DNA of 64,000 bases from Ephemerocybe angulata. Its lineage: Eukaryota; Basidiomycota; Agaricomycetes; Agaricales; Psathyrellaceae. Location: contig JAACJK010000166.1 of assembly GCA_013368325.1 (NCBI GenBank), positions 434,001 through 498,000 of the forward strand, read 5' to 3'. The position numbers and the translations under genes were made by a program. Numbering within the stretch: position 1 is the first letter of the stretch; every line of letters begins with the position of its first letter. Below are positions 31,465-39,904 of this stretch, in pieces. The notes beneath the pieces are model-generated. The model was not told where the DNA came from. It was given only the letters and a program-made list of their open reading frames with translations, and did no database searches.

Positions 31465-33960
31465 ATGCTTGCTCGTTCTGCACGAAATGCTTTGCCTAGA
31501 CATGCTTTGAAGAATCCATACCGTTTCCGGGGCTGCCTGGTCGCTAAGAAGGAATCAACACGACACCAAGGGCTTGCTACCAATGCTCAACACCATTCGC
31601 CAGCGTCAACAGACGACCGAAGTCTTGTCGCCCTCTTCGACCAGCCAGGCTCTTCCTCAATGCGGTCTCCATTTGCCTCTACAGGCCTCTTCGGACACCC
31701 CTCCCTCACTCATCCCCGTGGATTAATACTCCTGGCCGAATCGACGCTCGTACGAGCTAAACTCCTGACGGAACGGATATTGCGCGCACGGGAGTCGAGG
31801 GAAGAGTTGCTCAAAGTTGTTAAGAACCTTGACCGACTCAGCGACATGCTATGCGGCGTCATTGACCTCGCTGAGCTCGTCCGGAATGCCCACCCCGATC
31901 GCGTCTGGATGGAAGCTGCCAACCACGCCTACGAAACGTTATGCGAATTTATGAACGTCTTAAATACCCATGTCGGATTATATGAAGTGCGTGCACATCC
32001 CTCAGTGCCCGTTATCGATGGCTAATGCATTCAACTTTCAACTTTCTAGGTTCTCAAAGCTGTCCTATCGGATCCATCCATAGTTAAAACGCTTAGTCCA
32101 GAAGCGTATCAAACTGCTCTTATCTTTTGGCGCGACTTCGAGAAATCTGCTATCGACCTACCCCCTAGCGAACGCCAGAAATTTGTGACCCTTTCTTCCG
32201 ACATCCTTTCCCTTGGCCGACAATTCCTGGAAAATGCCAGCTCCCCCCGACCCCCTGCCTCGATAAAGGCCTCAGAACTTTCCGGATTGAAGGATAACGG
32301 GATGGGAGTTCGCCTCCAATTGCAAGCCCGGTTCACGAAGAGGGATCTCCAAGTCTACCCGGGCTCTGTGCAAGCGCAGATGATTATGCGCTCTGCTCCT
32401 GAAGAGGAGCCTCGCAAGCGAATCTATCTCGCTGCGAATTCGAGCACGCCAACGCAGATAGAAGTGTTGGAAACCCTTCTGCGGAAACGAGCGGAACTTG
32501 CCCAACTAATTGGACGCCCGAGCTTTGCACACCTAACATTAGACGATAAGATGGCCAAGACGCCTGGTGAGCATAGCCAAGACTCCCCTTTCAATTGCTT
32601 GCTGACCTCAGATGGCAGAGAATGTAAACAACTTTTTAGAAACTTTAATGGACCATACACGACCGTTCGCGAGGCGCGCTCTACGCACTCTAGCGCAGAG
32701 GAAGCAAGCTCATCACGGACTCTCTTCGTTACCTGTGGTTCAGGCATGGGATCGCGACTTCTATTGCCCACCTGACCCACCAGCACCGCCCATTCCCCTC
32801 CCCCCTCTGACGCTTGGCACGGTATTCATGGGCCTGTCGAGGCTCTTCCGTCACCTCTACGGTGTATCTCTTCGGCCGGCCGAGTCAGCCATTGGCGAGA
32901 CCTGGCACGGTGACGTCCAGAAACTGGAGGTCGTCGACGAGAACCAGGGCATAATTGGCTGGATCTATGCTGACTTGTTTGCGCGGCGCGGCAAGGCACA
33001 GGGAGCCGCACATTACACTGTTCGCTGCTCTCGCCGCACTGACGACGATGACGAAGCTGGGGACCTTACGCTAGAAGGGGAGGAACACATGCTAGTCGAG
33101 TCGAAGAAGTTCGAGTCGGCGAAGAGACATCGGTTACCGAACCAAGAAGGCGTTTACCAGCTCCCGCTGGTAGTTCTTCTTACCGAGTTTGCGAAACCCA
33201 CTATCTCCAGAGGCGCGACTGTTTTGGAATGGTACGAGGTCCTGACCTTGTTCCACGAAATGGGACATGCTATGCATTGTGAGTCTACAGTCACTTTACT
33301 TCTCGATCCGGTCTGATTGCTCTCCTTCTAGCTATGCTTGGCAGAACAGAGTACCAGAATGTCTCCGGCACCCGATGCGCGACGGACTTCGTCGAACTGC
33401 CCTCAATCCTCATGGAACATTTCCTCAACTCTCCCGCCGTCCTCTCCCTCTTCGACGCCGACAGCACCTCAACTGTGCGACAAATCGGAAACCACCATAG
33501 CGACCCGTGCCATTCTATCGACACCTATTCCCAAATCCTCCTCGCTGCTGCAGACCAGAGATACCATTCACCTGCAGTCATTGACCCGTCCTTCGACTCG
33601 ACAGCTGAACTTGCGAACCTCCATAATACCCGTGGCCTCATTCCTCACGTCCCTGGAACGTCTTTCCAGACGCAGTTCGGGCACTTGTTTGGATATGGTG
33701 CAACCTACTATTCGTACCTCTTCGACCGTGCGATCGCTTCGCGTGTCTGGGAGAAGGTTTTCTTAGAGAATCCGTTGGACCGTAGCAAAGGGGAGAGACT
33801 GAGGGAGGAAGTGCTAAGGCATGGAGGTGCTCGGGATCCTTGGCACATGGTCAGCGCCTTACTACGTATGCCTGAGCTCGAGGCTGGAGATGCGGAGGCG
33901 ATGCGGGAAGTGGGTAGATGGAGGATTGAAGATGAAGTTGGAGTTTCCGGGCGGCATTGA
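31465..33960 (+). CDS. OCT1: Mitochondrial intermediate peptidase (MIP), mating-locus marker
   Basis: An M3-family zinc metallopeptidase that removes octapeptides from imported mitochondrial proteins. Four exons (31465-31986, 32050-32566, 32619-33278, 33332-33960) give 775 residues. The N-terminus MLARSARNALPRHALKNPYR is a typical presequence. The zinc site is HEMGHAMH, split by the third intron right after its last His, and FGHLFGYGATYYSYLFDR near the C-terminus is the substrate-binding block of the family. MIP is the classical border gene of the HD mating-type locus in agarics, usually within 1 kb of HD1. Here it converges on HD1 with 379 bp between the stop codons. Confidence 0.96.
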
Positions 33961-34339
33961 CGCTAACCCTGAGTCGTGGCGAGTCGCGCTTGTGGCCAAT
34001 GGATGTTTGACTTTTACGTGAGGAAGTAATTTGCATGAAAACTAGGCAATGAAGTATATCTAATCGAACTTTAAAGATAGGATGCTGGGACTTGATGCTG
34101 TGGTAATAGTACAAATGCTGGTGAGGACAGTAACGAGGGTATAATCTATTGAAGGTGACTTGGGTGGGTATACGTAGAAACCCGAAATGGCAATGGGAAG
34201 ATCATAGTGAAGACATAAACATATGGACCATACGGGCGTGATCGGTGGTCGGTGAACCAGAAACACGACAGTGAAACGAGAGAAGGAAATTTAAGTGACA
34301 ACAAGGGACGAATGTGACTCAACCCTGGAGATTGAGATG
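33961..34339. other. MIP-HD1 3' intergenic spacer
   Basis: The convergent gap between the MIP and HD1 stop codons. It is A/T-richer than the flanking exons and holds no open frame or motif I can support; it probably contains both 3' UTRs. Confidence 0.5.
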
Positions 34340-38700: not shown

Positions 38701-38871
38701 CCGGAACCGACATCGCATGCATCACATAACACCACTTACCACATGCATTCATAATTGTACTCTAAATACATCAGAAATATTGAGATAATTCGGAAGCTAA
38801 TTCAAGCACGTTACAAGGGAATTTACTGGTTGGGATTTGCTCTTCTTGTACCTTAGCGCTTAGCAGTCACA

Positions 38872-39904
38872 TTATTTTGCGAATTGAGACGCCTAGAATC
38901 AGTGAGTTATAATGACACTCTGCAAAGCCCACAAGACATACCAAGCTTAGCAGTCCGCCCAATCCTCCTGAGTCCTTTCCACCAGTCGTTCCACCGCTGA
39001 ACTTTGACTGAACAAGCAACTTCATGATCGTCATCGCTGCACCGTTGACGGCGTCTTGCTTGTCTCCGGACGCCGTTCCACCAGACTTATCGAACAATTT
39101 CGTGGCCTCAGCCATCGCGAGACTGATCAACTGAGTCTGGCTGTTGCCGCTGGCGCCATGAGTAGCAGCAGAACCCGAGCTCGAGCTGGTGCTCGAACCT
39201 CCGGAGATGAATTGCTTGAGCACCTGAAGGCGACTAGGTTACATAACGAATGCCATGGCTGACGGGAAAGGCTGTACCTGCATCGCAGCGGCGCTACCGA
39301 GAGCGTTGGCGCTCAATCCACTAGTCTTGCCCTCAGAATAGACCTTCTCGTGTGCCCTGGTGACATCGTCCTCGTCGAGAGGCTCCTCCTCCTTGCTCTA
39401 TGCAATAGGCCCATCAGACGTCACGCGCGATGAGAAGCGGATCGGAGATGACGCACCTTGTTATCCTGGAGGAAGCTCAACGCAGTCTTAAAGAGGGAGC
39501 TCTCGCCAGAACCGTGCTGGGAAGCGTTCTGGACAACCTGGTCGTGGTCGACTATAATGTGAGCAGAATTTCAGCTGACGAAGGGTGAACAATGGAAGGA
39601 TCGCCTTACTGTCAGGCCCTCCGCTGGTGGAGGTTTGTCCAGAGTGATGGGGCGAGTTATACTCATGTCCTCCAGTCTTAGAGACATCGGCTGGAAAATC
39701 GACGAAGAGGGACGGGTCACCATTACCATACGGGCCTTTTGAGCCCTTAGATTGACTTACATTGAGAGTTGTTTCCACTCGTCGCCTCCTTGAGCGCATT
39801 CTGCGCCAACCCACTCAAGAAACCGCCGATTCCAGCACCTTGACTCTATCCAACCGATTCCCTCAGTCCCAGTCCAAGCGCTCAAATGCTTTCAAGGACA
39901 TACC
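38872..39904 (-). CDS. Beta-flanking gene (beta-fg), 5' end unresolved
   Basis: Beta-fg is the conserved fungal gene of unknown function that borders the HD locus on the side opposite MIP. Minus-strand exons that keep frame are ending at 39904, then 39838-39761, 39690-39610, 39551-39457, 39397-39278, 39223-38942 and 38892-38872. Recognised parts are GIGGFLSGLAQNALKEATSG, HDQVVQNASQHGSGESSLFK, TALSFLQDNK, the EEEPLDEDDVTRAHEKVYS block, LSANALGSAAAMQVLKQFIS, LISLAMAEATKLFDKSGG and the ending LGGLLSLASQFAK. The first exon is unclear. A candidate upstream piece ends GQYPEYG at 39904, but no ATG fits its frame; a start between 39905 and 40080 after one more intron is likely. The convergent gap to HD2 is 587 bp. 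Confidence 0.85.

Follow-up and report, generated by a model that had tools for sequence, protein, structure and literature searches.

In the segment at 31465-39906, MIP and beta-fg enclose a single pair of divergent homeodomain genes, HD1 and HD2, and we consider it likely, with a probability of roughly 93%, that this is the A (HD) mating-type locus of Ephemerocybe angulata, an inkcap mushroom of the family Psathyrellaceae, order Agaricales. Its two proteins are predicted to pair exclusively with the products of a different allele, and this pairing would switch on the dikaryon programme. The window, the whole stretch of 64,000 nucleotides that we analyzed, corresponds to bases 434001-498000 of contig C223 (859,460 bases) in an assembly of 58.7 Mb. 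The genes lie in the order MIP (+), HD1 (-), HD2 (+), and beta-fg (-), and both the gene models and the domain matches, which are far stronger than chance would give, agree with the initial annotation on this arrangement. That annotation also placed the motif WFIDARRR in one homeodomain gene and WFQNHRRR in the other, where we found them, in HD1 and HD2, respectively. Its assignment to the agaric A (HD) locus is supported by the mating-specific domains of HD1, the classical homeodomain of HD2, the divergent orientation of the pair, the MIP and beta-fg flanks, and the low identity of HD2 to another E. angulata record. It had further called the locus complete, which needs qualifying for HD2, whose reading frame breaks at about 38257-38272. 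As a one-pair A locus, it is an unremarkable member of a familiar class, and the HD2 frame break is its sole odd feature.

The flanking gene MIP, encoding mitochondrial intermediate peptidase, occupies 31465-33960 on the forward strand, with four exons (31465-31986, 32050-32566, 32619-33278, and 33332-33960) and a product of 775 aa. Two pieces of it match Peptidase_M3 in Pfam (E 8.8e-45 and 6.1e-46), and the spliced protein is identical to D9611_005669 of E. angulata. On the far side, beta-fg (38872-39906, reverse strand) is modeled with seven exons and six introns, encoding 228 aa with a DUF7721 match (E 2.1e-28). Its first intron sits immediately after the start codon, and the same intron plan is described for Agaricus bisporus beta-fg1, with a highly similar structure in Coprinopsis cinerea, Coprinellus disseminatus, and others (PMC8305134).

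HD1 lies at 34340-36372 on the reverse strand, with five exons (36372-36036, 35986-35365, 35314-34884, 34827-34723, and 34674-34340) encoding 609 aa. The protein contains Mating_N (E 4.2e-20), Homeobox_KN, which is the TALE-type homeodomain, and Mating_C (E 5.3e-20), all above the Pfam cut-offs. Its structure model has three N-terminal helices, the homeodomain, and a C-terminal helix. Identity to 17 aligned relatives ranges from 24% to 34%, and the nearest among the annotated mating-type proteins listed are the C. cinerea beta 1 proteins, at 33-35%. Low identity among HD1 relatives is usual in this fast-evolving family. The database protein P0001 (597 aa) is identical to the last 597 residues of HD1. 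It is the only identical record, and it comes from a sequence-read assembly source. Among the 29 HD1 matches listed, there is no E. angulata HD1 with an NCBI source, though MIP and HD2 correspond to D9611_005669 and D9611_005671; the public annotation of the species may miss or misread HD1.

HD2, as annotated, lies at 36989-38284 on the forward strand, with four exons (36989-37465, 37517-37630, 37683-37853, and 37904-38284) encoding 380 aa, and its predicted protein is letter-for-letter that of D9611_005671 of E. angulata. Residues 153-207 match the classical-type Homeodomain in Pfam (E 2.2e-12), and its WFQNHRRR motif is interrupted by an intron (37631-37682) between W and F. The start codons of HD1 and HD2 are separated by 616 nt (36373-36988), a region that would hold the putative divergent promoters. 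In the structure models of both proteins, the N-terminal helices and the homeodomain are of high confidence. In Foldseek searches, neither model had a PDB match that reached E 0.001; nearly all of the 50 matches listed are homeodomain or POU structures, and by sequence the solved structures cover only the homeodomain regions. The initial annotation had also made the best database matches a check on its reading, and these point to mating genes. Identical records aside, the best match of HD2 is a "homeodomain mating-type protein", and the best named match of HD1 is a Candolleomyces "hypothetical protein" with the same three mating domains, followed by the C. cinerea mating-type protein beta 1. 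C. cinerea, C. disseminatus, Tricholoma matsutake, and Hypsizygus marmoreus are among the species whose mating-type proteins appear as named relatives of the pair, and many other records are labelled hypothetical.

Only 379 nt separate MIP from HD1, and only 171 nt lie between 38700 and beta-fg, so a second pair cannot fit inside the locus. The suggestion in the initial annotation that additional HD pairs may lie elsewhere was not borne out: six-frame searches of the 58.7 Mb assembly, which worked exon by exon and scored best candidates only, such that a very divergent pair could escape, yielded neither another mating HD1 or HD2 nor another beta-fg. Mating_N has a single match in the assembly, and all three matches to Mating_C (one under the cut-off) as well as both matches to the C. 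cinerea HD1 protein b1 fall in the HD1 of the window. Both DUF7721 matches are in its beta-fg. With the second E. angulata HD2 sequence, P0031, as the query, four of five matches are in the window HD2, and the fifth is on C120 at E 0.06. On these exon-by-exon searches with Mating_N, Mating_C, b1, and P0031, we rejected the presence of further HD pairs outside this locus. We likewise rejected a second haplotype; the 8.4-kb locus matches only itself, and the assembly therefore has one haplotype here.

P0031, a protein of 517 aa from a 65,669-base contig, offers a within-species comparison. The initial annotation had named low diversity of the pair across strains as evidence against its reading, and the opposite was seen: the window HD2 is 51% identical (194/380) to this sole other E. 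angulata sequence available. Identity is 47% over residues 1-60 (26/55), 37% over residues 61-152 (34/92), 88% over the homeodomain at 153-209 (50/57), and 49% over residues 210-368 (76/155). In residues 61-152, E. angulata is 32-34% identical to three C. disseminatus sequences and 37% to C. aureogranulatus, which makes the two E. angulata sequences about as distant from each other as E. angulata is from either species, whereas MIP is 88% identical between E. angulata and C. disseminatus. In Trichaptum, proteins less than 86% identical act as different types (PMC8970355). Divergence of this order within E. angulata is as expected of mating-type alleles, with allelism here suggested by comparison to one second sequence, and the two HD2 sequences split long ago. 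The matches listed contain no further HD1 or MIP of E. angulata. MIP thus could not serve as a within-species control, with one E. angulata record among the best 120 of 501 matches; a second at least 90% identical could hide in the 2-member cluster of that record or be absent from the database.

We also considered whether HD2 alleles are common to several genera, and this was not borne out. A tree built from 10 of the 16 HD2 proteins in the alignment, with long rows dropped, groups the four Coprinellus sequences in a clade that includes neither E. angulata sequence (support 97/99). The window HD2 and P0031 are not resolved as a pair in this tree, and the AU test does not reject a constraint that joins them (p-AU 0.44). 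With 13 of the 16 proteins, two further trees, one from residues 1-368 and one from the N-terminal region alone, did not fix the E. angulata placements.

The frame break becomes visible on alignment with P0031. A stretch at 38257-38700 (+) is homologous to residues 369-517 of P0031 in a frame that differs from that of the annotated HD2, with 86 of 150 positions identical (57%). The tail match runs from 38257 to 38697 and is followed by a stop codon (to 38700), and the match before the break reaches P0031 residue 369 at 38272. The two frames overlap in matching P0031 (up to 38272 and from 38257), which places the break within about 38257-38272. An intron as the cause seems unlikely. As many as 21 frame-restoring introns can be written, but the matches run to P0031 residue 369 and resume from residue 368 without lost residues, and a frame shift fits better. 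The out-of-frame tail is still 57% identical to that of P0031, stays open as far as the corresponding end, and is without decay, and the frame change would thus be either a recent mutation or an assembly error.

Structure prediction bears on what the break might cost. In the P0031 model, confidence is high for the homeodomain and for the helices at 64-98 and 106-144, and blocks beyond residue 230 have a mean confidence below 60, except for 321-330 (69). The model drew on 18 aligned sequences only, and its low confidence suggests, rather than proves, disorder. The HD2 tail beyond the break is probably disordered, and we predict that neither partner choice nor DNA binding is affected. Because its frame breaks in this low-confidence, likely disordered tail, HD2 is probably still functional. 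An active protein in which the HD2 homeodomain is fused to the HD1 C-terminal region is cited in a Grifola frondosa paper (PMC10607315). A bolder proposal, which we hold only tentatively and think less likely than its opposite, is that this strain depends on a single, working HD pair whose HD2 naturally lacks its tail, a recent break having cut the protein after about residue 368-380 with the partner-choice region and homeodomain intact. If true, this allele would demonstrate in nature that mating does not require the HD2 tail.

The same broken frame could instead mark a decaying or inactive HD locus, its HD2 tail lost in a strain that is self-fertile, asexual, or using an HD specificity missing from the assembly. 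The broken frame relative to P0031 is what this would lead one to expect, but HD1 is open and has all its domains intact, Mating_N through Mating_C. In HD2, the N-terminal region and the homeodomain are preserved along with an open, 57% identical tail that lacks decay, and no other HD pair was found in the assembly. We regard this reading as very improbable. More plausible, though still unlikely, is that P0031 is not an allele but a paralogue from a sublocus that this strain lacks, in which case the argument from allelic divergence would be void. The surroundings of P0031 are known by the length of its contig alone (65,669 bases), which leaves room for such an origin. Yet clear P0031 matches in the genome occur only in the window HD2 (four of five, the fifth at E 0.06), and P0031 aligns with that protein from its first residue to its last, the tail being in the other frame. 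The least probable reading, to which we give hardly any weight, is that ordinary homeobox genes without a mating role lie beside MIP by chance. The genome does contain many other homeodomain genes (23 matches), but Mating_N and Mating_C domains, mating-type relatives, divergent pairing, and beta-fg on the far side would not be expected of them, nor would strong divergence between two E. angulata HD2 sequences.

As an A locus, the pair would act like others of its family. After two strains fuse, the HD1 of one would pair with the HD2 of the other, the N-terminal helical regions of both proteins selecting a non-self partner, and the heterodimer would move into the nucleus and there turn on the dikaryon programme. 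By analogy with the family, HD1 would supply nuclear import and activation, and HD2 would supply most of the DNA binding. PMC3140503 describes HD1 proteins with nuclear localisation signals and an activation domain and HD2 proteins that lack them and bind DNA strongly, with N-terminal dimerisation motifs in both. This neat division of roles is not universal, because nuclear localisation signals are also predicted in the HD2 proteins of Flammulina velutipes (PMC3140503) and G. frondosa (PMC10607315). In our scan for K-[KR]-x-[KR] motifs, there were five in HD1 (597 aa), four in C. cinerea b1, and one in the window HD2; three further HD2 proteins had none.

Comparison with described A loci places the E. 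angulata locus among familiar forms. In C. disseminatus, the A locus also lies between MIP and beta-fg (PMC8305134). Three sequences of that species are the nearest listed HD2 relatives outside E. angulata (41-42% identical), and its MIP, at 88% identity, is the nearest outside E. angulata among the best 120 of 501 matches. C. disseminatus is bipolar, its receptor locus having lost its mating role (PMC8305134). The C. cinerea A locus likewise has paired HD1/HD2 genes with MIP and beta-fg flanks, but there are paralogous HD1-HD2 pairs there (PMC8305134), whereas one pair was found in E. angulata. In G. frondosa, a single HD1 and a single HD2 are flanked by MIP and beta-fg, with receptors and pheromones elsewhere; in contrast to E. 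angulata, where HD1 has a homeodomain and adjoins MIP, its HD1 is described in PMC10607315 as lacking a homeodomain, and its HD2 adjoins MIP.

A one-pair A locus is shown in a relative of the multi-pair model C. cinerea, and a gene model is provided for a coprinoid species without a mating-gene description in the literature that we searched. Under four species names, no paper on E. angulata mating was found by title or abstract start, and a search for "angulatus" with tetrapolar, Coprinus, and mating found nothing. The available text of the genome paper (PMC10182949) makes no mention of mating, homeodomain, homeobox, or monokaryon. The public HD2 model can now be flagged as shorter than the second E. 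angulata sequence, and the two very divergent HD2 sequences are usable for mating-type markers.

All 19 STE3 matches in the assembly are on contig C117 and none are on C223, on which about 465 and 385 kb flank the HD locus. We interpret these matches as a group of five receptor genes at 1.918-1.987 Mb of C117 plus a single one at 0.415 Mb. In the 80 kb around the five receptors, there are nine short ORFs with a CAAX-like end; ten base-shuffled copies had one to five such ORFs. Of the nine, six have a CTIA or CTIC end, lie within the receptor stretch, and are pheromone precursor-like. The region C117:1917959-1988768, with its five STE3 genes and six CTIA/CTIC ORFs, is likely the pheromone/receptor (B) locus. 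The HD and receptor loci are possibly unlinked, and hence tetrapolarity is possible.

By Pfam, other genes of the window include, upstream of the locus, glycine dehydrogenase (ORFs in 14433-16612) and a PPR protein (16853-19093), and downstream a family-8 glycosyltransferase (42492-45401), an ABC1 kinase (46198-47916), a beta-lactamase-like protein (48083-50361), an RNA polymerase Rpb2-type subunit (56901-60876), and a fructosamine kinase (61800-62495). No transposon families were found among the 30 window ORF pieces scanned with Pfam. Next to beta-fg, an open frame of 358 aa (40495-41571, reverse strand) is very rich in Ala, Ser, and Thr, with KASEA-like repeats and no Pfam match. Repeats of at least 20 nt within 31000-42500 are all imperfect two-copy families or inverted pairs whose meaning is not evident.

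The assembly contains other homeodomain genes, with 4 matches to Homeobox_KN and 23 to Homeodomain. Some of the Homeodomain matches occur in tandem, two or three together and about 260 bases apart, at C43:70310-72408, C77:133307-133704, C77:160747-161151, C77:188776-189182, C125:3609134-3609786, and C152:990140-990797. One C43 ORF and one C125 ORF contain two homeodomain stretches each and have a common N-terminus like RSNI.DLLN. These tandem ORFs are a multi-homeodomain gene family distinct from the mating genes. At C86:81087-82250, three homeodomain matches lie in a row about 520 bases apart, the third with an in-frame stop, and appear as repeated gene or exon units.
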